Source: Olleya marilimosa CAM030 (GTDB lineage: Bacteria; Bacteroidota; Bacteroidia; Flavobacteriales; Flavobacteriaceae). Taken from it: a stretch of 64,000 nucleotides of DNA. Below the pieces are notes generated by a model. It was not told where the DNA came from, did no database searches, and worked only from the letters and a program-made list of their open reading frames with translations. The DNA is taken from assembly GCF_000518485.1 (NCBI RefSeq), contig NZ_KI912443.1, positions 62,001 through 126,000 of the forward strand. The letters are read 5' to 3'. A program made the translations under genes and the position numbers. Positions 45,629 to 59,679 of this stretch are shown piece by piece; position 1 is the first letter of the stretch; each line of letters starts with the position of its first letter.

Positions 45629-47914
45629 TTATTCTTCTTCCAGAGTTGCAGGAGTAACAGAAGCATCATGTGCGTTATGGTACTCTTCTAAAAGATTCAT
45701 AGTTGCGCTAAGTAAATCTTTAGTTTCTGATAATAAATTAAAATATAATGTCGTGTTTTTAGGACTAGATTCTTCAGTTCTTGTACGCTCTACTTGTTTT
45801 AATATTTTAGAGGTTACAAGTTCCATTATTTCATTTTTTCTTCCTAAGATATCTCCAATTTGCTCAAATGAACGTGAGTTAAAAGCATTTTGAGTATTGT
45901 TGAAAAATAAATCAAAACGCTCATCAATTTCTTTAAGCTCTTTTATTTGACTGAACTTTAATTTTTTATGGTTGTTGTTTACATGTTTATGACTCATTTT
46001 AGTAATGTAGTCCAACGACTGTGTCATATCTTGTAAATACCCTAAAATATTAATATAAAAGTTACTTGCATTTAAACTAGATTCATCTAAATTTTTAATA
46101 AAATAGAAGATGTTGTCTCTTAGTGCATCCACTTCCGTAGAAAGCTTTATAACTTGTTTTTTATTCTTTTTAAGCAATGCGCTATCTTGTTTAGCTAAAC
46201 CGTTAATAGCATTAGTGTAAATTTTATTTCCTCTTTTTACAACGTTAGCAATGTTCTTAGCACTTTCGTGAATAACACCTTGTACAGAGCTGCTTTCTGA
46301 GTCTGTTAAGCTGTCTTCTGGTGCAATTTTGTTAGATGTTTCCTTATGTGATAAATAGTTTCTAACTAATAAAATAGCAGTAAGTAATAATAATATTGGT
46401 GTCATCACTTTAGGATTCCACTTAATTAAAAAGACAACAGTTCCTGCTGCAAAAAAGGCTCCAATAGCAGTTCCAAACCAACCACCAATTACATTTAGTA
46501 CACCAGCTACTCTATAAACAGCACTCTCACGTCCCCAAGCACGATCTGCAAATGATGTACCCATTGCTACCATAAATGTAACATAAGTTGTAGATAATGG
46601 TAGTTTCATTGATGTTGCAATTGCAATTAATACACCTGCAACCATAAGGTTAACTGATGCTCTAATCATATCAAAAGCAGGTAAATCTTTACTTTGTGTT
46701 TTAGTTAAAGCTTTAGCGCTAGGCTTTTGAAAGCTTTTGTCAATCTTAGCTTGTGTTGATTTAGGTACAATTGCGCTAAAGTAATCAGATAACGCTGATG
46801 TTCCTTTTACAATTCCTCTAGACAGCATGTTTGGTTCAAACTTTTCATGCGTATCACCTTGGCTTGATAAGTTAATTTCAGTTTCGGCAACTGTTTTTGC
46901 TTTTTTAGAAAACCATAACGTTAATACCATAATAGCTCCAGAGATGAACAATAATAAAGGTTCTGCTGGTACTTTTTTCTCTAATATAGCCATAGAGAAA
47001 TCTGCTGGTAACGTTCCTGATGTAGTAAATGCTGTTTGCATAGCATCAAACGAGTGGTATGCTGCCATAGGTACACCAATAAAGTTAACCAAATCATTTC
47101 CAGAAAAAGCTAATGCTAAACCAAAAGTTCCAACCGCAATTACGATTATTAAAACACTTTTTTTAGTGATTTTTTGAAAAGCATAAGAAAATAATGTCCA
47201 TACAATTACACTTCCAATTAGTATGTATAATTCATTTCCTTCAACAACACCATTAATGCTTTTGTAAAAAGGTGTGCCTTTAAGCCCTTTTAAGAATATA
47301 AAGTATGTGATTGAAGCTAAAGAGATTCCTCCAAAAATAGCACCGAAATATTTAGATTTTGTTTCGTATTGAAATGTAAATATTAAACGTGAAACCCACT
47401 GTACTAATGCACCAACTGTAAATGCTATAAAGACTGACATTACAATTCCGGTAATAATCTCGATAGCTTTTTTGGTGTTTATATAGTCACCTAAGTCTGC
47501 AAATGTTTGTGTGTCTGAAGCACTAATTTTAATTAATGACATTACAACCGCAGCACCAAGTAAGTTAAATACAATAGAAACGGTAGTGGATGTAGGTAAT
47601 CCTAATGTGTTAAAAAAGTCAAGAAGTAAGATGTCAGTAATCATTACTGCCATAAAAATGTACATGATTTCTTCAAAACTAAACATAGCAGGTACAAAAA
47701 TACCTTTACGAGCAACTTCCATCATTCCGCTTGAAAATACAGCTCCAATAAAAATTCCTAAACTAGCAACTATCATAATAGTACGCATAGAAATAGCCTT
47801 AGAGCCTATTGCTGAGTTTAAGAAGTTGATGGCATCATTACTAACACCTACAACAATATCAACTACTGCTAATATTGTTATGGCAATCAACATAAATAAA
47901 TAAATATTATCCAT
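45629..47914 (-). CDS. PiT family inorganic phosphate permease with PhoU-like C-terminal domain
   Basis: The 761-residue protein is longer than classical PitA (about 500). The membrane part (1-500) has the two PiT signature halves: VGVSNDAINFLNSAIGS (about 22-38) with LGLPTSTTVSIVFNLLGAA, and a second half with MKLPLSTTYVTFMVAMGTSFADRAWG (about 433-458). The last 200 residues are cytosolic and helical (DALRDNIFYFIKNLDESS and a final EEYHNAHDASV), PhoU-like in layout and probably regulatory. It would import phosphate by cation symport. A candidate PHO box (two AATGTT 11 bp apart) overlaps its promoter, and the OprP-type porin gene lies 78 bp upstream on the same strand. Confidence 0.9.
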   Translation of the reverse strand: MDNIYLFMLIAITILAVVDIVVGVSNDAINFLNSAIGSKAISMRTIMIVASLGIFIGAVFSSGMMEVARKGIFVPAMFSFEEIMYIFMAVMITDILLLDFFNTLGLPTSTTVSIVFNLLGAAVVMSLIKISASDTQTFADLGDYINTKKAIEIITGIVMSVFIAFTVGALVQWVSRLIFTFQYETKSKYFGAIFGGISLASITYFIFLKGLKGTPFYKSINGVVEGNELYILIGSVIVWTLFSYAFQKITKKSVLIIVIAVGTFGLALAFSGNDLVNFIGVPMAAYHSFDAMQTAFTTSGTLPADFSMAILEKKVPAEPLLLFISGAIMVLTLWFSKKAKTVAETEINLSSQGDTHEKFEPNMLSRGIVKGTSALSDYFSAIVPKSTQAKIDKSFQKPSAKALTKTQSKDLPAFDMIRASVNLMVAGVLIAIATSMKLPLSTTYVTFMVAMGTSFADRAWGRESAVYRVAGVLNVIGGWFGTAIGAFFAAGTVVFLIKWNPKVMTPILLLLTAILLVRNYLSHKETSNKIAPEDSLTDSESSSVQGVIHESAKNIANVVKRGNKIYTNAINGLAKQDSALLKKNKKQVIKLSTEVDALRDNIFYFIKNLDESSLNASNFYINILGYLQDMTQSLDYITKMSHKHVNNNHKKLKFSQIKELKEIDERFDLFFNNTQNAFNSRSFEQIGDILGRKNEIMELVTSKILKQVERTRTEESSPKNTTLYFNLLSETKDLLSATMNLLEEYHNAHDASVTPATLEEE

Positions 47915-47963
47915 AATTTTTAATTAAAATAAGTTTGCAAATATCTTTACTGTTTTCGAGTGC

Positions 47964-47980
47964 AATGTTATGACAATGTT
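47964..47980. promoter_or_regulatory. Candidate PHO box before the phosphate permease
   Basis: AATGTT at 47964-47969 and at 47975-47980 are exactly 11 bp apart (GCAATGTTATG, ACAATGTTATG). On the coding strand the repeat ends in TTG, which serves as a -33 element 17 bp before GATATTTG, a one-mismatch -7 element. A PhoB-type response regulator is the expected binder; this is inferred from the period and the gene. Confidence 0.55.
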
Positions 47981-47992
47981 ATGTTTTTTTTG

Positions 47993-49195
47993 TTAAAAAT
48001 GTAGGTCAAATCCAAGTCTAAAGGTAATATTATCTTGGTTACCACTTACAGTTGTGTAACTTAAGTCGGTTTGTACTTTTAATTTGTGACCTACAATGTA
48101 TCTAGAGCCACCTAAAGTATACTGATCCGTTGGTAAGTTTCCTGTTATGGCATCATAAGTTACGGTAGTGTATCTAGCTGCAATTTCATAATTACTTTTA
48201 AACAGATAACCAGCTTGAAGGTTAAGTGCATTACCAGTAAGTACGACATCACCAGTAGGTGTTAAACCATCTGTGTCAATAGCTATTGGTTGATCAGCAT
48301 CTCTGTTTGCATATTCTCCCATAAAACTAAATCCTTTGTATTTAAACATTGCATCTGCAAAAATAGTAGACACATTAGTTTCATACAATGAACCATCGCT
48401 TTTAAACATATAATTTCCTAAACCGCTTCGTTCTCTAACAGCATTTTCGTTAAAGTTGTAAGTAAAACCTAACATTAGTTTTGGTTTCGCTTCTCTTTTT
48501 AAGTCAGCCTGGACATAATCACCTTTTGATTGAAACTTGCCAAAAGGTAAAAACTCTACACGAGCTGTATATTGAAGTCCACCTTCATTACCTTCTGAAA
48601 CATTTCGACCTTCACCTTGAGAAATTGCTAATTTTTCACGCATTAAAAAATTGTCACCTAATTTTGATGTATGACGTAATTGAACACCTAAGTCACGATC
48701 AATATTAAAACGACTATTTAATAAAGAACGGTCAATTAATTGAAGATTTGCTGAAGATACAACACGCTCTATATTACCAGGTAATTTTGTTTGTCCAGCC
48801 CAAAGCTCCCAATTATCTGCAAATTGCCACATAATAACAGCGTCTAGAATGTATCTAGGTGTGTTACGGTTAAATTGATTTGCTCCAGAAAGATCTCTGT
48901 TAGATAAACCTAATTCTATTTTGTATTTTAATTTTGGACTGTAGGCAAAACCATCAAACTTTAAACGTGCACGTCGCACAATAAAATTGTGTTCTGGACT
49001 TGTATATTGCGACCCATCATGATCCCAAGAGGATATAGATCTAACTTGAAAGCGAGGTGCAAATTTTATGCTAAAAGAACTGTCCTTTGCTGTAAAATTA
49101 ATAAGTCCTTTACCAAAAGAGGTGTCGCTAATTTCTTGCGCATAAGCAGACAGCGTCAAGCACAACAATAGTGCAATGGATAAAATAAGTTTCAT
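47993..49195 (-). CDS. Phosphate-selective porin, OprO/OprP family
   Basis: The 400-residue outer-membrane beta-barrel has a signal peptide (1-19, ending AYAQ), then FSIKFAPRFQVRSISSWDHDG and NFIVRRARLKFDGFAYSPKLKYKIELG, the typical first strands of OprO/P porins. WELWAGQTKLPGNIERV and DLGVQLRHT lie in the middle, and a C-terminal Phe closes the last strand (FRLGFDLHF). OprP-type porins form trimeric anion channels, often phosphate or polyphosphate selective. Charge distribution for selectivity cannot be judged here. It is upstream of the PiT permease gene and has two 11-bp-spaced repeats just above its probable -7 element (TTTATTTG, 49221-49228). Confidence 0.85.
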   Translation of the reverse strand: MKLILSIALLLCLTLSAYAQEISDTSFGKGLINFTAKDSSFSIKFAPRFQVRSISSWDHDGSQYTSPEHNFIVRRARLKFDGFAYSPKLKYKIELGLSNRDLSGANQFNRNTPRYILDAVIMWQFADNWELWAGQTKLPGNIERVVSSANLQLIDRSLLNSRFNIDRDLGVQLRHTSKLGDNFLMREKLAISQGEGRNVSEGNEGGLQYTARVEFLPFGKFQSKGDYVQADLKREAKPKLMLGFTYNFNENAVRERSGLGNYMFKSDGSLYETNVSTIFADAMFKYKGFSFMGEYANRDADQPIAIDTDGLTPTGDVVLTGNALNLQAGYLFKSNYEIAARYTTVTYDAITGNLPTDQYTLGGSRYIVGHKLKVQTDLSYTTVSGNQDNITFRLGFDLHF

Positions 49196-49232
49196 TATAA
49201 GGTATTAGTTTTTGTCGCTGCAAATAAATAAC

Positions 49233-49252
49233 TCTAATGTTAACTTAATGTT
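49233..49252. promoter_or_regulatory. Candidate PHO box before the OprP-type porin
   Basis: The coding strand reads AACATTAAGTTAACATTAGA, two AACATT units exactly 11 bp apart. The probable -7 element TTTATTTG starts 7 bp after the core repeats. The same 20-mer occurs, in the opposite orientation, at 54158-54177. Confidence 0.6.
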
Positions 49253-49282
49253 TCCTAAGTATTAACCTTTTAAATTTTAACG

Positions 49283-49312
49283 AAAAAAGACTGCTTTGGC
49301 CAAAAGCAGTCT
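49283..49312 (-). terminator. Orphan leftward terminator in the phosphate-region intergenic gap
   Basis: AGACTGCTTT and AAAGCAGTCT form a perfect 10-bp stem with a 5-base loop, followed on the minus strand by six T. No annotated leftward gene lies between it and the palindromic terminator at 49950. It may therefore end an unannotated small RNA starting near 49385 (GATATTTG, a near -7 element, on the minus strand at 49392-49399). Confidence 0.5.
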
Positions 49313-49504
49313 CATTAGAAATCATAATAATGTAGTCGACAAAAACTAATAGATTATATGACATACTAATTGTGTTGTCTTAAGACAGTAACAAATATCA
49401 ACATACAAAGTGATTTTAATGTAATGCTAATATTATGTAATTATTAAGTGTTGTTATGTTAATTAATGTTTCTTAAGGTTTGATTTTTAGGTACCTAAAA
49501 TTCC

Positions 49505-49543
49505 AATGTTAATTTAATGTTACCTAAATGTTGCATAAATGTT
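49505..49543 (+). promoter_or_regulatory. Candidate PHO box array, four 11-bp direct repeats
   Basis: AATGTT starts at 49505, 49516, 49527 and 49538, a perfect 11-bp period (consensus about TAAATGTTANN). The array ends 10 bp before an exact -7 element (TATCTTTG), where PhoB-type activators usually bind in place of the -35 element. Four units could hold two dimers. Confidence 0.65.
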
Positions 49544-49553
49544 ATCTAATATG

Positions 49554-49561
49554 TATCTTTG
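49554..49561 (+). promoter_or_regulatory. -7 promoter element TATCTTTG
   Basis: This is an exact TANNTTTG match, 25 bp before the ATG at 49587. Transcription should start near 49568, which argues against the ATG at 49569 as the start codon. There is no TTG -33, as expected for an activator-dependent promoter. Confidence 0.6.
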
Positions 49562-49586
49562 AGATATAATGTTAAAACCCATAATT

Positions 49587-49946
49587 ATGAAGAAATCAAT
49601 TTTAGTTTCAATTGCTTTTTTATTTACTGTGGTTTCTTTTGCTCAAGACAAAAGAGATTTAAAACTTAATAAAAACACTAATTTAATAGAAGTTGTTTAT
49701 TATCACGACAATGGAGTTGTAAGCCAAACTGGTGCTTACACTACAGATGGTAAGCTACAAGGTGAGTGGTTAAGTTTTGACGCAGCAGGCAAGAAACAAG
49801 TTTCAGCAAATTATGATAATGGTAAAAAAGTCGGCAAGTGGTTTTATTGGAATGAAACCACTCTTAAAGAAGTAGATTATACTAATAACAAAATTGCTAA
49901 TGTTAGCGAGTGGGAAGTGAAAAATCCAGTAGCTATTAGTAACTAA
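49587..49946 (+). CDS. Small secreted MORN/YwqK-like repeat protein
   Basis: The 119-residue protein has a signal peptide (1-19, ending SFAQ), then YwqK/MORN-type beta repeats such as EVVYYHDNGVVSQTGAYTTDGKLQGEW and KKQVSANYDNGKKVGKWFYW. Similar flavobacterial proteins are often labelled YwqK antitoxin or, wrongly, nicotinic acid mononucleotide adenylyltransferase. No toxin gene is adjacent and the protein is exported, so an antitoxin role is unlikely. The ATG at 49587 is chosen on promoter position and signal peptide quality. Upstream lie four 11-bp repeats, the strongest candidate PHO box array in the window, so it is probably phosphate-starvation induced. Function unknown. Confidence 0.8.
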   Translation: MKKSILVSIAFLFTVVSFAQDKRDLKLNKNTNLIEVVYYHDNGVVSQTGAYTTDGKLQGEWLSFDAAGKKQVSANYDNGKKVGKWFYWNETTLKEVDYTNNKIANVSEWEVKNPVAISN

Positions 49947-49949
49947 GTT

Positions 49950-50003
49950 ATACACATCAAAAAAAAAGCCTTGCATATGCAAGGCTTTTTTTTTGATGTG
50001 TAT
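49950..50003. terminator. 54-bp perfect palindromic bidirectional terminator
   Basis: A 27-bp arm is perfectly repeated inverted with no spacer. The core is GCCTTGCAT/ATGCAAGGC, flanked by nine A and nine T, then ACACATC/GATGTGT. It ends the rightward YwqK-like gene and the leftward beta-helix lipoprotein gene. Confidence 0.92.
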
Positions 50004-50009
50004 TTAGGT

Positions 50010-51179
50010 TTAGTTGATTGTCCAACCAGCTCCCCAAGATGTGTAGTCTGTTCCAGTAGCTGTGTCTTCGCCAGTGAAAAAGTCAGCATCTGTAAAAGTT
50101 ATAGTAGTATCGTTTTTAACTTTAGTTAAAACGTCAACAAAAGTTACTCCTGTTACTTGTAGGTCATCGCTTACAACTCCGTTTCCTGTGTCAGCATCAT
50201 CTAAATCAAAACCTTCAGCATATCCTGTTATCATGATATTGCTAAATAATCCTTGAGTACCAGCTCTTAATCTAACAGCTTCTGATGAGTTAGCCGATCC
50301 TTCACCAATAATAGTTACGTTGTTTACAGTTGGTTTAGAGAATATTCCTGTTGCATTACTAAAGTCAGTATTGTATCCATCTGCTTCAATTGCTTTATCA
50401 TCTGTTGCTCTGTTAGAGATGTAAACATTGTTTAATGTTCCAGAAAAACCTTCTGTCCAATCTACTGAGTCATCTTCTGCATTGATTACAGAGACGTAGC
50501 TTGCATTAACTGTTCCACCAAAAAACTCAATTCCATCATCTTTTCCTGCATAAGCTTGGATGTAATTAACAGATGTTCCGTTACCTACACCATAAAAAGA
50601 GAATCCGTTATTTTCAGATTGTCCATCAGCTGCACCACCAGAATACTCTACACGTACATAGCTTAAAGATCCAGAATTATCGTTTGCAACATTTCCACCG
50701 TAAGGTAAACTTGCAATTTCAGAAGTTGCAGTGTTTGTTCCTGTAACAGAGTTGATAGGTGCTTTTCCTAGTAAGATTAATCCTCCCCAATCTCCAGCAG
50801 CAGGACTTGCAGCGTCAGATGTAAAAACAATAGGGCAATCTGCAGTACCATTAGCTATGATTTGTGCACCTTGAGATATTGCAATATATACATCTGCTCC
50901 AGATGATAATGCCTTAATAGTCATACATGGCGGAATAGTCAAAGTGGTTCCACTTGCCATAATTAAAGATCCATTTAACTTATAAGTGTTGTTAGCATCT
51001 AATGTTAAGTCTTCAGTATAAGTACCAGACAAGAAAATAGTTGAAGGGTCAGTTGGACCTCCTCCAGACGTGTTGTTTGTTACACTGTTGTCGTTAATTA
51101 CAATATCAGATGTGTCATCAGTAGAGCAAGAGAATACTGTTGCTGCTAATGCTAAGCCTAAAATTATTTGTTTTTTCAT
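50010..51179 (-). CDS. Beta-helix lipoprotein encoded with a TonB receptor
   Basis: The 389-residue protein has a lipoprotein signal (AATVFSC, Cys18), then a Ser/Thr/Asn/Gly-rich beta-strand protein. Repeats such as SYVRVEYSGG, NYIQAYAGKDDGIEFFGG, SYVSVINAEDDSVDW and NVYISNRATDDKAIEADG recur about every 24-27 residues, a right-handed parallel beta-helix pattern with regularly placed Asp. It lacks a T9SS sorting domain, so it should be a periplasmic or surface lipoprotein. It lies 44 bp after the TonB receptor gene and is probably its operon partner, a position often taken by a surface substrate-capture lipoprotein. The substrate is unknown; phosphate-containing ligands are suggested only by the neighbourhood. 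Confidence 0.75.
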   Translation of the reverse strand: MKKQIILGLALAATVFSCSTDDTSDIVINDNSVTNNTSGGGPTDPSTIFLSGTYTEDLTLDANNTYKLNGSLIMASGTTLTIPPCMTIKALSSGADVYIAISQGAQIIANGTADCPIVFTSDAASPAAGDWGGLILLGKAPINSVTGTNTATSEIASLPYGGNVANDNSGSLSYVRVEYSGGAADGQSENNGFSFYGVGNGTSVNYIQAYAGKDDGIEFFGGTVNASYVSVINAEDDSVDWTEGFSGTLNNVYISNRATDDKAIEADGYNTDFSNATGIFSKPTVNNVTIIGEGSANSSEAVRLRAGTQGLFSNIMITGYAEGFDLDDADTGNGVVSDDLQVTGVTFVDVLTKVKNDTTITFTDADFFTGEDTATGTDYTSWGAGWTIN

Positions 51180-51223
51180 TGTTTTTAGTTTTTTAGTTGT
51201 ATTATGTTTTTGTGTTATATTTA

Positions 51224-54028
51224 TTAAAATTTATATTTAAGTTGAAGTCCTAAATTCATACCTCTTTTGTAATCTGTAACACCTTTTCCGTTTGCAGACA
51301 CTACTAATACATCGCCTTGATTTTGGTCTTCTCTAACGTATTGGATAGTTGGGTTTAAAAGATTTTTAGCGCTTAAGTTGATTTCAAAATTATCATTGAT
51401 TGTATTTTTCCAGATAAAGTCTAAAGTTGGAACACTTTTTTCTACAATGTTACCTAAGTCACCAGAACCTAATGCATCGATACGATCAGAGAAGTATGAA
51501 AATACTAAGTTGGCAACAGGCTTATAGTTTTTAAAGGTTGGTGAGTAGCTGATGTCTGCATTTAAGATAAATGGCGAAGCACCTTGTAATTCGTCTTCGG
51601 TTTTATTAAAAGCTAAATCAAATGTTCCATCTATGTTTTCATATAAATCTTGATTAGTTTTCATGTACGTTGCATTAACTCCAAATGATAAATTGGTGTT
51701 TTGATCTGCATCAACTAATAGGTCTTTTCTTAATTCTACTTCAACACCATAAACAGTTGCTTGATCTCCTGTTCTAACATAACGTTGAGTACCTGTTGCA
51801 TCACCAACAACAACAAGATTTATTGGATTGTCAATTTGTTTGGTAAATGCACCTATTGAAAAGATTTCACTTTTACTAAAAAACCACTCATATTTTAAAT
51901 CAATATTTAAAACCTCAGAGTAACCAAGTGCATCTGGATTACCACCAATACGTGTAGATACGTCTTCGTAAACAAAAGGAGCTATTTCTTTAAACTCTGG
52001 TGTAGATACAGTTTTGCTTGCAGATAATCTTAGGTTTTGATCATCCGTTAGGCTATATTTAACGTTTAAACTAGGTAAAATAAATGTTTCTTCAGATACT
52101 TTAGAGTCCACACCATTGTTTCCTAAGTTAATCACATTGTAATCAATACTTTGTTCAAAATTTTCTAATCTTACGCCAGGTACAAACAACCATTTTTCTC
52201 CTGCTTTAATTTGGGCATCTACATAACCAGCATAAATGTTAAGCTTACCATTATAAGTGTTTTCAAAAAGTCCAGGTCTGTTAGTGTTAGAAAGTGTTGG
52301 GTAAGGTTTTAGTACTTTAATTTCGTATAAACCATTAGATGAAGGATTAAGATTTAAGTTGTCAAGATTAAACACTGAATCAAAATTATTAACATCTGTT
52401 ATTTGATAATCGCTATCAACTATATCGTAACCATATCTAACATTATTAAATTGTCTTGTTTTGTTACGACCATTGTATCCAAAATTAAATTTTAGATTGT
52501 CATTAACCTCATAAGCTAAATTAATACGTCCATTGTACTCATCATCTTCAATTTTTTGAAAGTAACGTTGGTTATCAAATACTACATTGCTGTAAAAGGT
52601 TGGGTTTGTTGTTGGGTCATTATCTAAAGCGTAGTCGTAGTTTTCTACACTAAAACGCTTACGGTCTGGTTGGTCTGAAAACACTTTGTTGTATCCAAAT
52701 CCCCAATCTAATTCAAAATTACCCGATTTGTGATTTCCTATTAATTGATTGACAAACATTTTAGTTTGGTCAAATTGTATGTTTTGTTGGTAAAACCCTT
52801 TGTCTGTGTTTAAAATAGCATCTCTACTTCTTCCTTGACCATCTGTACCATAATATCCTACTTCGTCAGAAGAACTATTAATAAATACTGAGTTAAAGCT
52901 TAAGTTATTATCAGAGTTTATTTTGTAATTGATGTTTGCCATAGCTGTTGATGTTGTAGAGTATTCAAACTCTTCTGCAGCTTCAAACGCTTTTTTCTCT
53001 ACTGTAGAAAAATCTACAGATCGACCTTGTCTATACTCGTAATTGTTTTCAAATCCACCAGTAACAAAAAAGCTTAATCTAGAACCGTTTTCAAAATTAA
53101 ATGAACTACCTCCAGATGCACCATAGGCAACATTAATAGGTGTGTCTATAGCTACAGGATCTACACCATGAGATAGAATAATTGCAAATGGGTTATGCTC
53201 GTTTCTTCCGTAAAATCCAAAATAACCAGTACCTTCACTACGTACAAAGTTTTTATCTACAGCATTAGTGTTAAATCCACTGCCTGTAAAAGCATCTACA
53301 AAACTTCCTCCTTTATGTTCTTTAGAGGTAATGTCTACATTACCTGCAGCAAAATCTCCGTAAAATTGAGCTGCATAAGCTTTACTAATGGATACATTTT
53401 GGATAACATCCGAAGAGAATAAATTTAAATCTATGTTTTTCTTGTTAACGTCATTAGATGGTAATGATAATCCATTCATGGTTGTGTTAAGGTATCTGTC
53501 TCCAAGACCTCTTACATATACGTTGCTTGATCCTTCTTGTTTAGACACTCCAGATATTTTAGCAACAGCACCAGCAGCATCACTTACTCCTTTTCTAGAT
53601 AACTCTTCTGCACCAATACTCTGTTTGATTTCGATAGCTTTTTTTTGATCTAGTAATAAAGCGGTTTCACTTTCACGTTTGGTAGTAACAGTTTCAAGTA
53701 TTACTTCGTCTAAAGACGCAGCACTGGCTCCCATTGCAACATTAATAGTTGTTGTTTTTCCGGCTTCAACAATTGCAGCTATAGTTTGTGTTTGATAACC
53801 AACAAAACTAAATTCTACATTGTATGAACCTGGTTTTAAGTCTGAAAACAAATATTTACCATTGTCATCAGACGTTGTACCTATAGTAGTGCCAGTAATT
53901 AAAATGTTGGCAAAAGCAAGAGGTTCGTCGTTAAATTCTTTATCAGTTAAAGTTCCTGATATTGATCCATTTTGAGAATAAGTTACGATGCTAAATAAAG
54001 CAAAAACTAAGTATGTTAAATTTTTCAT
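51224..54028 (-). CDS. TonB-dependent receptor with CarboxypepD_reg-like N-terminal domain
   Basis: The 934-residue outer-membrane transporter has a signal peptide (1-19, ending VTYSQ) and a CarboxypepD_reg-like domain (about 20-105; GSISGTLTDKEFNDEPLAFANI). The plug is at about 130-240 (SNVYVRGLGDRYLNTTMNGL) and the 22-strand barrel runs to the C-terminus (LGLQLKYKF, terminal Phe). No SusD-like partner is present; a beta-helix lipoprotein follows instead. The ATG at 54028 gives a clean signal peptide; the longer frame begins 17 codons upstream without a hydrophobic stretch. The promoter is TTG-N17-TTTCTTTG at 54052-54079. The transported compound is unknown. Confidence 0.92.
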   Translation of the reverse strand: MKNLTYLVFALFSIVTYSQNGSISGTLTDKEFNDEPLAFANILITGTTIGTTSDDNGKYLFSDLKPGSYNVEFSFVGYQTQTIAAIVEAGKTTTINVAMGASAASLDEVILETVTTKRESETALLLDQKKAIEIKQSIGAEELSRKGVSDAAGAVAKISGVSKQEGSSNVYVRGLGDRYLNTTMNGLSLPSNDVNKKNIDLNLFSSDVIQNVSISKAYAAQFYGDFAAGNVDITSKEHKGGSFVDAFTGSGFNTNAVDKNFVRSEGTGYFGFYGRNEHNPFAIILSHGVDPVAIDTPINVAYGASGGSSFNFENGSRLSFFVTGGFENNYEYRQGRSVDFSTVEKKAFEAAEEFEYSTTSTAMANINYKINSDNNLSFNSVFINSSSDEVGYYGTDGQGRSRDAILNTDKGFYQQNIQFDQTKMFVNQLIGNHKSGNFELDWGFGYNKVFSDQPDRKRFSVENYDYALDNDPTTNPTFYSNVVFDNQRYFQKIEDDEYNGRINLAYEVNDNLKFNFGYNGRNKTRQFNNVRYGYDIVDSDYQITDVNNFDSVFNLDNLNLNPSSNGLYEIKVLKPYPTLSNTNRPGLFENTYNGKLNIYAGYVDAQIKAGEKWLFVPGVRLENFEQSIDYNVINLGNNGVDSKVSEETFILPSLNVKYSLTDDQNLRLSASKTVSTPEFKEIAPFVYEDVSTRIGGNPDALGYSEVLNIDLKYEWFFSKSEIFSIGAFTKQIDNPINLVVVGDATGTQRYVRTGDQATVYGVEVELRKDLLVDADQNTNLSFGVNATYMKTNQDLYENIDGTFDLAFNKTEDELQGASPFILNADISYSPTFKNYKPVANLVFSYFSDRIDALGSGDLGNIVEKSVPTLDFIWKNTINDNFEINLSAKNLLNPTIQYVREDQNQGDVLVVSANGKGVTDYKRGMNLGLQLKYKF

Positions 54029-54051
54029 TTTGACTATTAAAATTCTTGGTG

Positions 54052-54079
54052 CAAAGAAACCTTGATATTGTAAAGTCAA
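54052..54079 (-). promoter_or_regulatory. Promoter of the TonB receptor gene
   Basis: On the minus strand TTG (54079-54077) and TTTCTTTG (54059-54052) are 17 bp apart. The -7 element differs from TANNTTTG at one base. It is followed 23 bp on by the ATG. Confidence 0.45.
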
Positions 54080-54157
54080 GGTTAACTGCAGATTAATAGT
54101 TAGTCACCAAAAAGTTAGCTAAAGGTTACCAGAATAGTTTTAGTGTTACTTTTTCAA

Positions 54158-54177
54158 AACATTAAGTTAACATTAGA
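54158..54177. promoter_or_regulatory. Candidate PHO box between the TonB receptor and dgt
   Basis: AACATTAAGTTAACATTAGA contains two AACATT units exactly 11 bp apart and is identical over 20 bp to the site before the porin. It lies 7 bp upstream of a TTG (54185) that, with TATCTTGC at 54206, forms the likely dgt promoter. It is also about 80 bp upstream of the TonB receptor promoter, so either gene, or both, may be the target. Confidence 0.55.
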
Positions 54178-54230
54178 AAGTACTTTGCTTTATTATTCAA
54201 ATAGTTATCTTGCAATACTAAATTTTGAAT

Positions 54231-55574
54231 ATGAATTGGGAACAATTATTATCGTTAAAACGCTTTGGCGACACTAATAAAAGATTAAGAAAAGAACAAG
54301 ATGAAACTAGATTAGGGTTTGAAGTAGACTATGATCGTGTTATTTTTTCGTCAGAGTTTAGAAGTCTACAGGATAAAACTCAAGTTATTCCTTTGTCTAA
54401 AACTGATTTTGTACATACGCGATTAACACATAGTTTAGAGGTGAGTGTTGTAGGACGTTCTTTAGGTAGAAAAGTAGGACAAAAAATTTTAGAAAAGCAT
54501 CCACATCTTCAAAATATACATGGCTATTTACCAAACGATTTTGGAGCAATTGTAGCTTCAGCAGCATTAGCACATGATATAGGTAATCCGCCTTTTGGTC
54601 ATTCTGGAGAAAAAGCAATTGGCGAATTTTTTATCTCTGGAGAAGGTCAGCATTATAAAGAAGAGTTAACAGCTAGTCAATATCAAGATTTATGTGATTT
54701 TGAAGGTAATGCCAACGGTTTTAAAATAGTAACACAAAGTCGTGCAGGCAGAGAAGGTGGTTTAAGATTAAGCTATGCTACATTAGGGGCTTTTACAAAA
54801 TATCCAAAAGCATCATTACCTAAAAAGCCTACAAAGCATATTGCAGATAAAAAGTATGGTTTTTTTCAAACAGAAAAAGATTCATTTAAAGACGTTGCAG
54901 AAGAGTTAGGGTTAATCCCAAGAGGTGATGCTAATAGTTTAAGTTATTCTCGTCATCCTTTAGCTTTTTTAGTCGAAGCTGCAGATGATATATGTTACAC
55001 AATAATAGATTTTGAAGACGGAATTAATTTAGGGTTAATTGAAGAGGAATACGCGTTAGAGTATCTGATTAATTTAGTACGAAACTCCATTAATACTAAT
55101 AAATACCATAAGCTAACTAATACTAAGGATAGGGTAAGTTATTTACGTGCATTAGCTATTAATACATTAATTAATGAAGCAGTAACCATTTTTATGGAAA
55201 ACGAAGAAGCTATACTTGACGGTCAGTTTAGTATTAGCTTATTGGATAAAAGTAAGTACGAAGCACAAATCAATGATATTATAAAATTAAGCATTGATAA
55301 AGTATATCAATCTAAAGATGTAGTTGATAAAGAAATTGCTGGTTACCAAATATTAAATTCATTATTAAATACTTACAGTAAAGCTGTAAATAATACCTTT
55401 TTAGGAAAAGCTACAAATTATGATAAACTAATAATGAAAGGTTTACCATCAACATTAGACTTTAATATAGATAGTTTGTATGTAAGATTGCTAAATGTAT
55501 GTCATTATGTGTCTTTGATGTCTGATAGTCAAGCTATTATCGAATATAAAAAAATAAAAGGGTTTAGTTTATAG
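54231..55574 (+). CDS. dgt: Deoxyguanosinetriphosphate triphosphohydrolase
   Basis: The 447-residue HD-domain enzyme hydrolyses dGTP to deoxyguanosine and triphosphate. The HD motif is intact: His in RLTHSLEVSVVGRSLG (about 67-82), AHDIGNPPFGHSGE (about 114-127), and the later Asp in LVEAADDICYTIIDFEDG. FSSEFRSLQDKTQV near 42-55 is typical of the dGTPase N-terminus. The ATG at 54231 is preferred over TTG two codons earlier. It recycles nucleotides, releases triphosphate and could supply phosphate. The upstream PHO-box-like site may therefore be meaningful. Confidence 0.93.
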   Translation: MNWEQLLSLKRFGDTNKRLRKEQDETRLGFEVDYDRVIFSSEFRSLQDKTQVIPLSKTDFVHTRLTHSLEVSVVGRSLGRKVGQKILEKHPHLQNIHGYLPNDFGAIVASAALAHDIGNPPFGHSGEKAIGEFFISGEGQHYKEELTASQYQDLCDFEGNANGFKIVTQSRAGREGGLRLSYATLGAFTKYPKASLPKKPTKHIADKKYGFFQTEKDSFKDVAEELGLIPRGDANSLSYSRHPLAFLVEAADDICYTIIDFEDGINLGLIEEEYALEYLINLVRNSINTNKYHKLTNTKDRVSYLRALAINTLINEAVTIFMENEEAILDGQFSISLLDKSKYEAQINDIIKLSIDKVYQSKDVVDKEIAGYQILNSLLNTYSKAVNNTFLGKATNYDKLIMKGLPSTLDFNIDSLYVRLLNVCHYVSLMSDSQAIIEYKKIKGFSL

Positions 55575-55665: not shown

Positions 55666-58600
55666 ATGAAGAAGAAAATTATTATCCTAACGTCATGCGT
55701 TTTAGTATGTCTGGCTTTTTTTACCCTAACTAAAGTAAAAAATTCTGAAGTTTCTGAGATGGCTAACGCCAAAGAAATTCACAAAAATCATTTAGAAAAC
55801 AGTCCTTTTAAAGAGGTTTTAAAATTAACTAAACCCGAAAGAAAAGCTGCTGGATTAACTCCTAACAAATACTACGAACAAGAGTGGGAGTTAACAATGG
55901 ATCCTATCTTAGGAAGACCAACAACTGAAAAATTAAGACTAATTAGAGAAGCACAACAAGCTAAAAGACAGGCTTTTTTAGCCTCAGGTAGAGTACCAGG
56001 AGATGCTATTGATAACAGTTGGATAGAAAGAGGTCCTAATAATGTTGGAGGTAGAACAAGAGCTATCATGTTTGATCCTAATGACACAACTAACGAAACC
56101 CTTTTTGCAGGTGGAGTTAGTGGAGGGTTATGGAAAAACACTAATATTTCTGACGCTAATTCTAGTTGGATTAGAGTTGATATCCCAGAAAATTTAGCGG
56201 TTAGCTGTATCACTTATGATCCAAATAACACAAATATATTTTATGTAGGAACAGGAGAATCATACGTAGGAGGAGATGTAAATGGAGATGGTGTATGGAA
56301 ATCTGAAGATGCAGGTATGACTTGGTCTAAAGTCCTTGGTGGTATCTCAGGACCAACAACAACACAAACTATTATAAATAACATTACAGTAAATGCGCCA
56401 AGCAGTATTGCTGGAGATTATATATCTAATCCTACAAGTATTTTTGGTGGAAGTATTGATACTGTAATTACAGCTGAGTTTATTTTGGCAGATGGAACCG
56501 TACCATTTACTGGTACCAATGGACAAACATCAAATAACCCTAATGAAGGTTGTGGACCGTCAACAATAGACATGACTGGAAAAATCGCTTTAATAAGAAG
56601 AGGGGTTTGTACATTTATTGAAAAAGTTAAATCAGCGCAAGATGCAGGGGCAATTGGAGCGATTATAATGAATAATGTGGATGACGCACTAATTAATATG
56701 TCAGGAGATGATGACTCAATTGTAATACCTGCTGTTATGATATCTCAAGCAGATGGTAATCTTATTGAAGCAGCTATTAATGCAGGTACTGTAACAGGAT
56801 CTTTAAATCCACAAATAGGAGTTTTAAACGGTACTTTAGTGCCAGGAATTCAGTTTGTAAACGATATAAAAGTAAGAGATAACAATGGTGTTTCAGAAGT
56901 TTATGTTGCAGCAGGAGATAGTTTTTATGGAGCTGCAAATACAGCAACATTTTTAACAGGACCAGAGTTTGGTTTATACAAGTCAACAGATAATGGAACT
57001 AACTGGAACGAAGTAGTTTTACCTACAACAACTTTTGGTAATAAGTTTTGTCCAAACGATATAGAAATTGGTGCAGATAACAAAATATGGTTATCTACAA
57101 CTAATAGTACTGTGTTTGGTGATGGTGGAGGAAATATCCTTAATTCTACAGATGGGATAACGTTTACAGTTAAACGCACTGTTCCAGACGCGACTAGAAC
57201 TCAAATAGCTGTCTCGTCCTCGAATGCAGATGTTGTTTACGTATTAGCACAAGGTAGTACTGCTGCAGCGCCAGTTTTAATGGAGAAAACCACGGATGCT
57301 TTTACTACTAACACAACAATGAGTTTACCTAACGATGCAGATACAGGTATTGCAGCTAATGATTTTACAAGAGGGCAAGCATTCTATGATTTAATGTTAG
57401 AAGTAGATCCAAATAACGATCAGATTATCTTTGCAGGTGGAATTGATTTGTTTAAATCCTCAAACGCAGGAAATAGCTGGAGCCAATTTAGTCATTGGTA
57501 TGGTGGTTTTGGATTTCAAGATGTGCATGCAGATCAACATGCTATGACCTTTGCTAATGGATCATCAACAGTAGTTGCTTTTGGTAATGATGGTGGTGTG
57601 TATTATTCTGCAAATGCAGGATCAACTACAACTTCAAGAAATAAAGACTTTAACACGTCTCAATTTTATACGGTAGGTGTAGCTCCAACAACTGCTTTTA
57701 CAGGAGATTATTTTGCAGGAGGACTGCAAGATAACGGGACACAATTATTTGAAAATGCTAATCCAAATCAAACAGATGCTACTATTGAAGCTTATGGTGG
57801 AGATGGTGCTTTTACATTTTTTGATCAAGACGGAACAGATCAATATTTTGTAAGAAACTACGTTTACAATTCAGGGATTAACGTTTATAATTTTGCAACA
57901 AGCTCTAATGTTACTATCAACAACGAAACAGCTTCAAATGGAGCGTTTATTAATCCTCAAGCATTAGATTCTAATTTAGATATTTTATATTCTAATTATT
58001 CATCAGGAGGAAACAGCATTATTAGAAGGTATTCAGGGATTAAATCTCAGTCTACACTTCAAGCAGTAAGTTTAACAGACCCATTATTAACAAGCACACC
58101 AACTGCTTTTACGGTATCTCCTCATACCACGACCTCGTCTAAAGTTTTAGTAGGTACAATATTAGGAGATGTGTTTTTAATAGAAAATGCAAATCTAGCT
58201 TCACCAACTTTTACACAATTAGATCCTTCAAATGTGATTTTTGGAAGTGTTTCTGATTTAGAATTTGGAGCTACTGAAAATGAAATTTTCTTAACAGTTC
58301 ATAATTATGGTGTTCAGAGTATTTGGTATTCTAACGATGGTGGTTTAGTATGGCAAGCTAAAGAAGGTGACTTACCTGATATGCCAGTTAAAGCCATTTT
58401 ACAAAATCCTTTAAGTCCTGACGAAGTTATTATTGGAACAGAATTAGGCGTTTGGTTTACAAATAACTTCTCTGATGCTAACCCAAACTGGAATCAAGCT
58501 TTTAACGGAATGTCAAATGTTAAAGTAACAGACCTAGATTTAAGAGATGACAATATGGTTTTTGCATCTACTTATGGTAGAGGAATCTTTTCTGGTGAGT

Positions 58601-59679
58601 TTAAAATTGATGCTAATGGTGACGAAGATGGTGATGGTGTCCTTAATGGAGTAGACAATTGTGTTAATACCGCTAATGCAGATCAAGCAGATGCAGACGG
58701 AAATGGTATTGGAGATGCATGTCAAGATACGGATGGTGACGGAATATTAGATATTAATGATAATTGTCCACTAAACGCTAACCCTGGTCAAGAAGATGCA
58801 GATGGAAATGGTGTTGGAGATGCATGTCAAGATACAGATGGTGACACTATTTTTGACGATGTTGATAACTGTATAGCAATACCAAATGCTGACCAACAAG
58901 ATACTAACGGAAACGGAATTGGTGATGTTTGTGATACTAGTTATACTAATGCTGATAATATCGCTTTACAAATTATTTCAGAAACTTGTGATGGTCAAGA
59001 TAACGGAAAAGTTATAGTTACTGTAAATGAAACTTATGTGGATTACGTTACAACTTTAGTAGGTAATGGATTAAACTTATCTCAGTCGTTTACTAATAAC
59101 ACCTATACTTTTGAAGATTTACCTGTTGGTTCTTATACAGTTTGTGTTGCTGTGGATGATATTGCGATCGATTATCAACAGTGTTTTGAAATTAATATTG
59201 AAGAAGCTGGTGTTATAGAATTACAGATTGCTAACAGCAATAATCTAAATTCTGATACAACTAATGTTGAGGTTAGTAGAGGTACTGCTCCATATACTGT
59301 CCTATTTAACCAAGAAGTAATAATGATTACATCTGATACTAATTTTGATTTAGATCTTGTGGGTAACGGAGAGTTAGAGATAAAAACTTCAAAAGCATGT
59401 GAAGGTACTTTTAGAAAAACAATTCAAAATGCCATTAGCTTAAAAGCTAGTCCTAATCCAGTAATTGATAATCTTAAAATAACAATTCCAAGTTCAGATA
59501 CTAAATCTACAATCGGAATTCAAATTTATGATGTTACAGGTAAGTTAGTGCTTAATAATAACTACCAAAAAACTAGCGCAAGTTATATACAAGTTCCTTT
59601 TGCAAATCTAAACTCAGGAATCTATTTTATAAAAGTAGATTTAGATACTCCAGAGGTTTTAAAAATTATAAAAAAATAA
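55666..59679 (+). CDS. T9SS-exported multidomain protein with sortilin-like, PA and thrombospondin-3 repeats
   Basis: The 1337-residue protein has an N-terminal signal/anchor (about 3-24). Sortilin/BNR-type beta-propeller blades follow (WIERGPNNVGGRTRAIMFDP, VWKSEDAGMTWSKV, LYKSTDNGTNWNEV, LFKSSNAGNSWSQF). A PA domain (about 235-395; CGPSTIDMTGKIALIRRGVCTF) is inserted between blades. The propeller ends near 970 (SNVKVTDLDLRDDNMVFASTYGRG). Calcium-binding thrombospondin type-3 repeats (about 985-1090; DGDGVLNGVDNC and DADGNGIGDAC units) follow. A beta domain with PVGSYTVCVAVDD and a C-terminal T9SS sorting domain (LKASPNPVIDN ... GIYFIKV) close it. No protease catalytic motif is visible. It is probably a surface or secreted binding protein. 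Confidence 0.9.
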   Translation: MKKKIIILTSCVLVCLAFFTLTKVKNSEVSEMANAKEIHKNHLENSPFKEVLKLTKPERKAAGLTPNKYYEQEWELTMDPILGRPTTEKLRLIREAQQAKRQAFLASGRVPGDAIDNSWIERGPNNVGGRTRAIMFDPNDTTNETLFAGGVSGGLWKNTNISDANSSWIRVDIPENLAVSCITYDPNNTNIFYVGTGESYVGGDVNGDGVWKSEDAGMTWSKVLGGISGPTTTQTIINNITVNAPSSIAGDYISNPTSIFGGSIDTVITAEFILADGTVPFTGTNGQTSNNPNEGCGPSTIDMTGKIALIRRGVCTFIEKVKSAQDAGAIGAIIMNNVDDALINMSGDDDSIVIPAVMISQADGNLIEAAINAGTVTGSLNPQIGVLNGTLVPGIQFVNDIKVRDNNGVSEVYVAAGDSFYGAANTATFLTGPEFGLYKSTDNGTNWNEVVLPTTTFGNKFCPNDIEIGADNKIWLSTTNSTVFGDGGGNILNSTDGITFTVKRTVPDATRTQIAVSSSNADVVYVLAQGSTAAAPVLMEKTTDAFTTNTTMSLPNDADTGIAANDFTRGQAFYDLMLEVDPNNDQIIFAGGIDLFKSSNAGNSWSQFSHWYGGFGFQDVHADQHAMTFANGSSTVVAFGNDGGVYYSANAGSTTTSRNKDFNTSQFYTVGVAPTTAFTGDYFAGGLQDNGTQLFENANPNQTDATIEAYGGDGAFTFFDQDGTDQYFVRNYVYNSGINVYNFATSSNVTINNETASNGAFINPQALDSNLDILYSNYSSGGNSIIRRYSGIKSQSTLQAVSLTDPLLTSTPTAFTVSPHTTTSSKVLVGTILGDVFLIENANLASPTFTQLDPSNVIFGSVSDLEFGATENEIFLTVHNYGVQSIWYSNDGGLVWQAKEGDLPDMPVKAILQNPLSPDEVIIGTELGVWFTNNFSDANPNWNQAFNGMSNVKVTDLDLRDDNMVFASTYGRGIFSGEFKIDANGDEDGDGVLNGVDNCVNTANADQADADGNGIGDACQDTDGDGILDINDNCPLNANPGQEDADGNGVGDACQDTDGDTIFDDVDNCIAIPNADQQDTNGNGIGDVCDTSYTNADNIALQIISETCDGQDNGKVIVTVNETYVDYVTTLVGNGLNLSQSFTNNTYTFEDLPVGSYTVCVAVDDIAIDYQQCFEINIEEAGVIELQIANSNNLNSDTTNVEVSRGTAPYTVLFNQEVIMITSDTNFDLDLVGNGELEIKTSKACEGTFRKTIQNAISLKASPNPVIDNLKITIPSSDTKSTIGIQIYDVTGKLVLNNNYQKTSASYIQVPFANLNSGIYFIKVDLDTPEVLKIIKK

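Follow-up and report, generated by a model that had tools for sequence, protein, structure and literature searches.

Putative PhoB boxes built on an 11-bp repeat and a candidate small RNA upstream of oprP in a phosphate gene cluster of Olleya marilimosa and related Flavobacteriaceae

In Olleya marilimosa CAM030, paired AATGTT units at a spacing of 11 bp stand before the genes for a PiT-type phosphate permease, an OprP/OprO-family porin (oprP), a small YwqK-like protein and a TonB-dependent receptor, and a conserved RNA element lies directly upstream of oprP. Our best explanation is a PhoB-box regulon together with a candidate small RNA that acts on oprP, and we give this joint explanation a probability of roughly 0.8. 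A PhoB-like regulator, whose gene is followed by that of a PhoR-like kinase on another contig, would bind the 11-bp repeats. When phosphate is low, it would occupy AATGTTA repeats in tandem upstream of oprP and PiT, of the YwqK-like gene and the receptor/lipoprotein pair, and of the gene that encodes it. A small RNA of about 106 nt, made from the same strand directly upstream of oprP, would add a second layer: its loop would form a duplex of about 13 nt with the oprP leader, next to the AUG, and this duplex would most likely keep ribosomes from entering. The Pho regulon is known as a kind, and the present data appear to extend it to a defined flavobacterial operator. The small RNA, a conserved and structured candidate with one predicted target, is the newer part of the finding. 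Phosphate can limit marine bacteria, and the motif could serve as a tool for reading phosphate regulons in flavobacterial genomes, where it would tie uncharacterised receptors and lipoproteins to phosphate.

The window, which is the whole 64-kb stretch of DNA that was analysed (32% G+C), belongs to a genome of 3.34 Mb in 27 contigs, and the features of the cluster are collected in Table 1. Two of the four targets had been called phosphate-uptake genes by family, and Pfam matches for PiT (PF01384) and OprP (PF07396) bore this out. A profile search of the genome found one Porin_O_P match, which is oprP, and the closest named relative of the porin was from Olleya namhaensis (86% identity, in a search that may omit records very near the window). 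The lipoprotein-like protein had no sequence match in Pfam, NCBIfam or PDB. Between the convergent YwqK-like and lipoprotein genes, a strong inverted repeat with A- and T-runs (49957-49997) reads by eye as a two-way terminator. On the other side of the cluster, dgt is adjoined by a gene (55666-59679) for a 1337-aa protein with thrombospondin type 3 repeats, a PA domain and a type IX sorting tail.

Table 1. Features of the cluster, in positions of the window.
Feature	Position	Strand	Remark
PiT-type phosphate permease, 761 aa	45629..47914	-	Pfam PF01384, E 1e-29
Box 1, AATGTT-N5-AATGTT, 49 bp before PiT start	47964..47980	+	Reverse orientation relative to PiT
OprP/OprO-family porin (oprP), 400 aa	47993..49195	-	Pfam PF07396, E 2.1e-11
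oprP leader segment CGACAAAAACTAATA, proposed small RNA target, ends 7 nt before ATG	49203..49217	-	Complement of loop seed
Box 2, before oprP, 11 bp from TTTG	49236..49252	+	Reverse orientation relative to oprP
Intrinsic terminator of candidate small RNA	49283..49313	-	10/10 stem pairs with compensatory changes
Candidate small RNA, about 106 nt: 5' hairpin, long hairpin with loop seed, intrinsic terminator	49283..49388	-	5' end estimated
Loop seed TATTAGTTTTTGTCG	49337..49351	-	Perfect complement of 49203-49217
GATATTTG, -7-like element of putative small RNA promoter	49392..49399	-	Similar element in many relatives, by eye
Degenerate 11-bp repeat upstream of small RNA, TTAATAATTAC ATAATATTAGC ATTACATTA, weak box	49417..49447	-	Two-mismatch site
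Box 3, four tandem 11-bp units before YwqK-like gene, then TATCTTTG	49505..49543	+	Forward orientation
Small YwqK/MORN-like protein, 125 aa	49569..49946	+	MORN_2 below cut-off (23.3/29.6 bits); secreted, by eye
Lipoprotein-like protein, 389 aa	50010..51179	-	Lipobox by eye; beta-helix as read in the original prediction
TonB-dependent receptor, 934 aa from ATG	51224..54028	-	PF00593, PF07715, PF13715
Box 4, 129 bp before TonB receptor ATG, 56 bp before dgt	54158..54174	-	Forward orientation to receptor
dgt, dGTP triphosphohydrolase, syntenic neighbour	54225..55574	+	TIGR01353 above cut-off

The original prediction had located ten AATGTT/AACATT hexamers at 47964/47975, 49236/49247, 49505/49516/49527/49538 and 54158/54169 (the last pair as AACATT on the + strand), and all ten were found there. 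They belong to one 11-bp unit, as had been proposed, with the correction that the boxes occur in two orientations. The window contained six exact AATGTT pairs at 11 bp, all of them intergenic, and 100 dinucleotide shuffles of the window gave a mean of 0.06 and a maximum of 1. No other spacing from 6 to 40 showed more than two exact pairs in the window. Thousands of equally good sites across the genome had been named as the outcome that would speak against the motif; the scan of the whole genome gave eight exact pairs, the six described here and two in coding sequence (in a 353-aa ORF and in an ORF reading as mutS). Relaxed forms of the motif showed no genome-wide excess, with 110 one-mismatch sites against 158 for the reversed control and, for a longer pattern with up to three mismatches, 314 against 383. 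The signal therefore sits in the exact pair, not in loose matches, and we do not claim weak sites elsewhere because the loose motif was no commoner than its reversed control. At up to two mismatches there were 37 sites in the genome, of which 30 had a locus and 29 of these were inspected; outside the cluster only the phoB-like promoter was convincing. One of the two-mismatch boxes, which may be chance, lies at position 35529 of contig C3 and is flanked by an endonuclease/exonuclease/phosphatase-like gene (by eye) and a gene for a secreted carboxypeptidase-like-repeat protein.

Conservation was measured in a family sample of 120 genomes, one per genus, in which 63 genomes besides this one held an oprP ortholog at E <=1e-100. 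The relative loci set comprised 60 loci (1.15 Mb), made up of 55 oprP-ortholog loci and five chosen by the receptor; PiT, OprP, the YwqK-like protein, the lipoprotein, the receptor and dgt were all found by tblastn in 33 of the 60, some of them weakly. The results showed 85 exact pairs at spacing 11 in these loci, 17 at 22, 10 at 33 and 0-4 at each of the others (7 to 40). The named loci (79 testable of 80) showed the same spacings, with 145 exact pairs at 11, 32 at 22, 12 at 33 and 0-8 at others, and 48 of the 79 had an exact box within 130 bp of oprP.

In related genera the 11-bp units were conserved upstream of the oprP, PiT, YwqK-like and TonB receptor orthologs; the original prediction had proposed this comparison as a check. 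Within 260 bp upstream of oprP, 55 relatives had 35 exact sites at spacing 11, and the other spacings averaged 0.0. The corresponding figures were 13 against 0.0 for PiT in 56 relatives (a stretch that can reach the YwqK-like box in genomes where oprP is absent) and 34 against 0.1 for the YwqK-like gene in 42 relatives. For the TonB receptor, with one mismatch allowed, 24 spacing-11 sites were counted in 46 relatives, and the other spacings averaged 1.4. Of these 24 sites, 13 pointed forward (116-141 bp) and 11 pointed in reverse (79-100 bp). The control genes ompA (9 genomes) and chrA (5 genomes) had no spacing-11 site with up to one mismatch. The half-site consensus here is AATGTTA, and a refined 18-mer, AATGTTANNTTAATGTTA, gave 76 exact matches in 62 of the 120 genomes, counted anywhere in the genome, against 3 for its reversed control. 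Counted by genome with the window included, exact sites were present at oprP in 34/56, PiT in 10/57, the YwqK-like gene in 25/43, dgt in 11/48 and the receptor in 3/44. Exact sites are absent from many orthologs, and this counts against the PhoB-box reading. The motif, its spacing and its conservation were observed directly, and from them we infer PhoB binding and a phosphate response.

The fourth site had been placed between the TonB receptor and dgt. The pair is present, and we prefer the receptor to dgt as its target because the distance is conserved, being 129 bp here and 116-141 bp for the forward sites of 13/46 relatives. The intergenic region is shared with dgt, the exact box between dgt and the receptor side has the opposite direction in ten relatives, and dgt keeps its standing as a candidate.

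Three OmpR-type regulators were found in the genome. One of them is encoded on contig C6, followed by a PhoR-like kinase and, on the other strand, a PF04101 glycosyltransferase. Its best matches were the PhoB models TIGR02154 and NF053854, and the scores lay below the curated cut-offs (215.6/296.2 and 215.1/270), so we call the protein PhoB-like. A forward box with one mismatch lies 173 bp upstream of its gene. As a 19-mer site this box belongs to the genome's best five; of the other four, three fall in the window and one in coding sequence. In the 300 bp before phoB in 29 relatives, with two mismatches allowed, there were 32 sites at spacing 11, and the other spacings gave 5-18 except 33 (20). 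A forward site with up to two mismatches was present before phoB in 19 of the 29, often 69-85 bp from the start, and 8 of the 29 had no site at this threshold. The proposal of a local phosphate regulon at four promoters was therefore right about the shared operator motif and too narrow in calling it local, since a weaker copy stands before the PhoB-like gene on the other contig. Taken together, the comparisons suggest that the 11-bp repeats are most likely flavobacterial PhoB boxes, a putative assignment. The phoB gene was divergent from and adjacent to the TonB receptor homolog in 17 of the 83 relatives that hold both. In these 17 genomes (G087, G086, G056 and others) the phoB-receptor gap was 184-279 bp, an alternative arrangement of the same genes.

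The E. coli Pho box has the half-site CTGTCAT, and the Bacteroidota promoter element is TAnnTTTG. The boxes described here are like those of the proteobacterial Pho regulon, as generally known, in being 11-bp tandem direct repeats before phosphate genes and the regulator gene, and in lying at preferred distances from the promoter element. They differ in the half-site (AATGTTA, not CTGTCAT), in the TAnnTTTG promoter and in their two orientations. We met no written-out PhoB box for Bacteroidota in the parts of the literature searched. PhoB of B. fragilis binds the pstC promoter, and no box sequence was found in the sections of that report consulted (PMC3547664); putative Pho boxes are mentioned in plcP clusters of marine bacteria (PMC4796936). 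For R. anatipestifer PhoP, a flavobacterial regulator of the PhoB/PhoP type that is also treated in an earlier paper (PMC5399024), the DAP-seq core TTTAACA fits TGTTA, and the sections consulted describe no 11-bp phosphate box (PMC9603813); the two regulators are likened by motif, not by orthology.

The closest published gene set is the PUSIV/phoBR operon of F. johnsoniae (Fjoh_0541-0549; PMC8115612), in which a TonB receptor and a pectate-lyase-fold lipoprotein beside phoBR were strongly induced by low phosphate. The two gene sets are alike in OprP, the receptor with its lipoprotein and the glycosyltransferase, and the C6 phoBR-like neighbourhood consists of the genes listed around F. johnsoniae phoBR in the sections of that study consulted. 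They differ in that phoBR and the glycosyltransferase lie here on another contig (compared by gene content, not sequence orthology) and that the cluster also takes in PiT, the YwqK-like gene and dgt (PMC8115612). The F. johnsoniae locus numbers, as far as given there, suggest that phoB and the receptor are adjacent, as in the 17/83 relatives (PMC8115612); this PUSIV feature is absent here, with the phoBR-like pair on C6. The receptor, its lipoprotein and the YwqK-like protein had been linked to phosphate scavenging from the motif. The conserved boxes favour this link, and for the receptor and lipoprotein it was already published for F. johnsoniae.

The direction and position of the boxes differed between genes. 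They point forward towards the YwqK-like gene, phoB and the receptor of the window, and reverse at oprP and PiT, where they are nearer the start than the forward boxes. The distance from box end to TTTG was 11 bp at 27 of 34 oprP promoters and 22 bp at 9 of 10 PiT promoters, i.e. one unit apart; at the YwqK-like gene it was 36 bp at only 12 of 25. By their placement, the forward boxes (YwqK-like gene, phoB, receptor of the window) look like activation sites. PhoB represses a pit gene in Sinorhizobium, and the reverse boxes at oprP and PiT may likewise be repression sites, at which PhoB would turn off low-affinity routes under phosphate limitation. This idea is tentative and we lean somewhat against it. 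The orientation and distance, unlike those of the forward boxes, speak for it, and so would the response of F. johnsoniae, where the receptor and lipoprotein were strongly up and low phosphate brought no induction of oprP (fold-change column -1.3, apparently log2, FDR 0.245; PMC8115612). Against it, no convincing Pst system was found in this genome (two weak PF12849 matches fell in loci with LysR-like and membrane-protein ORFs), so that shutting off PiT would be costly, and the receptor promoters of relatives carry reverse sites too (11/24), which blurs the orientation rule.

It is improbable that a different member of the OmpR family, rather than PhoB, recognises the 11-bp repeats. Two more regulators of this type are indeed encoded in the genome, and R. 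anatipestifer PhoP, with an ArcA-like motif at 579/583 peaks, has many non-phosphate targets in the sections of the report consulted (PMC9603813). On the other hand, CtrA and RprY models gave the best matches to the two further regulators of this genome, none of them reaching its cut-off, and the box recurs before the PhoB-like gene in relatives and before phosphate genes. Also counting against the joint explanation are the sub-threshold PhoB model scores, the relaxed motif without excess, the uninduced oprP of F. johnsoniae and the 8 of 29 relatives with no site before phoB.

The RNA element sits between oprP and the YwqK-like gene and was overlooked in the original prediction. It was found by aligning 34 oprP-YwqK intergenic regions, and it lies on the oprP strand with a terminator and T-run. 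The fold z-score of the element was -3.68 in the window and -3.3 to -6.1 in six relatives. In a plain alignment of 44 sequences, all ten pairs of the terminator showed compensatory changes; this alignment misplaces the long stem in divergent rows, and folding it recovers only the tip and the terminator. In a model-fitted alignment of 59 rows, which leans towards its own model and includes 10 weak rows (<=33 bits, other strand or off-site), 30 of 32 pairs had compensatory changes, and there were 240 double-change cells against 72 when shuffled and at most 73 with partners slid. A search of Rfam 15 (4227 models) with the region 47800-54400 at E up to 1 gave no match at 49283-49399.

The RNA model matched 61 of the 120 family genomes with 65 hits, and 72 of the 80 named oprP loci. 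Of the 65 hits, 49 were 78-187 nt upstream of the oprP ortholog on the same strand and 7 were elsewhere in oprP genomes; the remaining 9 fell in genomes without that ortholog, and 5 of these were strong (58-104 bits). No hit was found in 12 of the 64 oprP genomes, by a search whose filters lose some weak matches. Across the order (246 genomes, same filters), hits above 50 bits occurred only in Flavobacteriaceae, in five genomes and this one. Beyond the family, 14 genomes gave weak hits of 32-39 bits, which we do not take to be the RNA. Three of the five strong hits without the ortholog were inspected (G110, G071 and G107, as distinct from G047 and G014). In G110 and G071 the same leader precedes a porin-like gene that is only distantly related (25-27% identity). 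G107 (L214 / L096) keeps the RNA upstream of PiT, without the porin and without the complementary leader; this genome and the 12 oprP genomes that gave no hit speak against the joint explanation. In a further genome (G103) the oprP ortholog is on another contig, and the leader lies at the end of the contig that carries the RNA. Upstream of the RNA, the degenerate repeat was examined with three mismatches allowed, and spacing 11 led modestly with 78 reverse sites, followed by spacing 22 with 56. PhoB control of the small RNA through this repeat is a possibility.

The loop of the element is complementary to the oprP leader. A perfect complement of at least 12 nt, and up to 21, was present in 35 of 55 loci tested. 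Cognate pairs were more stable than swapped pairs in 43 genomes (-19.98 vs -18.30 kcal/mol; 0/20,000 permutations, kinship uncorrected) and in 72 named loci (-19.06 vs -18.47 kcal/mol; 7/20,000 permutations, kinship uncorrected). The core GACAAAAACT is nearly invariant and hence uninformative for covariation. Beside it, pairing was kept through two-sided changes at +10 (41/42 vs 33.8 expected; 0/2000 shuffles) and +12 (35/42 vs 23.2; 0/2000), and weakly at +11 (43/2000 shuffles), and it ceased at +13 and 5' of the core. In a second set, +12 alone repeated (50/64 vs 39.4; 0/2000 shuffles), and neither +10 (293/2000) nor +11 was significant. On the porin tree, most +12 changes fell in one part with two more elsewhere, and the +10 changes amounted to two to four events by reading of the tree, so the covariation of the pairing rests on few independent events, which counts against the joint explanation. 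When the genome was searched for other seed targets at up to two mismatches, 33 sites came up, and the control gave more (59). Among 12 seed sites inspected, one was the RNA itself, and only the oprP leader had up to one mismatch just before a start codon; a two-mismatch site lay 18 nt before a 274-aa ORF. Complementarity and covariation were directly observed, and from them we infer separate transcription of the RNA and the direction of its effect. The candidate small RNA would most likely block oprP translation.

The same observations could be read in two other ways. The element may be an attenuator in a long oprP leader, with terminator and pairing in cis on one transcript. In favour of this arrangement, the element shares the strand of oprP and immediately precedes it, separated from the gene by an intrinsic terminator. 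Downstream of that terminator, oprP nevertheless has its own box and TTTG at a fixed distance, so that it need not be transcribed from an upstream start, and G107 keeps the RNA without the porin; we regard an attenuator as rather unlikely. There is a slimmer chance that the complementary segments are two inverted sites for a DNA- or RNA-binding protein and that their complementarity is incidental. The nearly invariant core and the small number of independent compensatory events would fit such sites, whereas the pairing kept at +10 and +12 by two-sided changes, its stop at +13 and 5' of the core, and the position of one copy in the loop of a covarying RNA hairpin argue for pairing. A bolder form of the scheme is doubtful; in it, the direction of a box would decide whether PhoB activates or represses, and PhoB would also control a loop-seeded RNA that silences a phosphate porin. 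If it were true, a circuit of transcription and RNA would be kept across much of the Flavobacteriaceae, and the RNA and its target leader would outlive replacement of the porin itself (two genomes).

To our knowledge, few small RNAs with known targets have been described in the phylum Bacteroidota. MicF and MicC of enterobacteria are porin-repressing small RNAs, and the candidate is like them in being a small RNA with a terminator and putative pairing to a porin mRNA near the start codon. It differs in having no Rfam match, in its loop seed, in being encoded beside its target and in belonging to another phylum. Literature searches for a small RNA that targets oprP gave nothing relevant. In F. 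psychrophilum, of the same bacterial family, 85 new RNAs were reported, and one of these Rfp small RNAs, Rfp18, has a tested role; the main text of that study, as consulted, is without mention of oprP, a porin or PhoB (PMC9723704). One relative carries a second copy of the RNA (G088:C11:89988-90091, 72.6 bits) about 2 kb from its TonB receptor homolog, with another copy before oprP.
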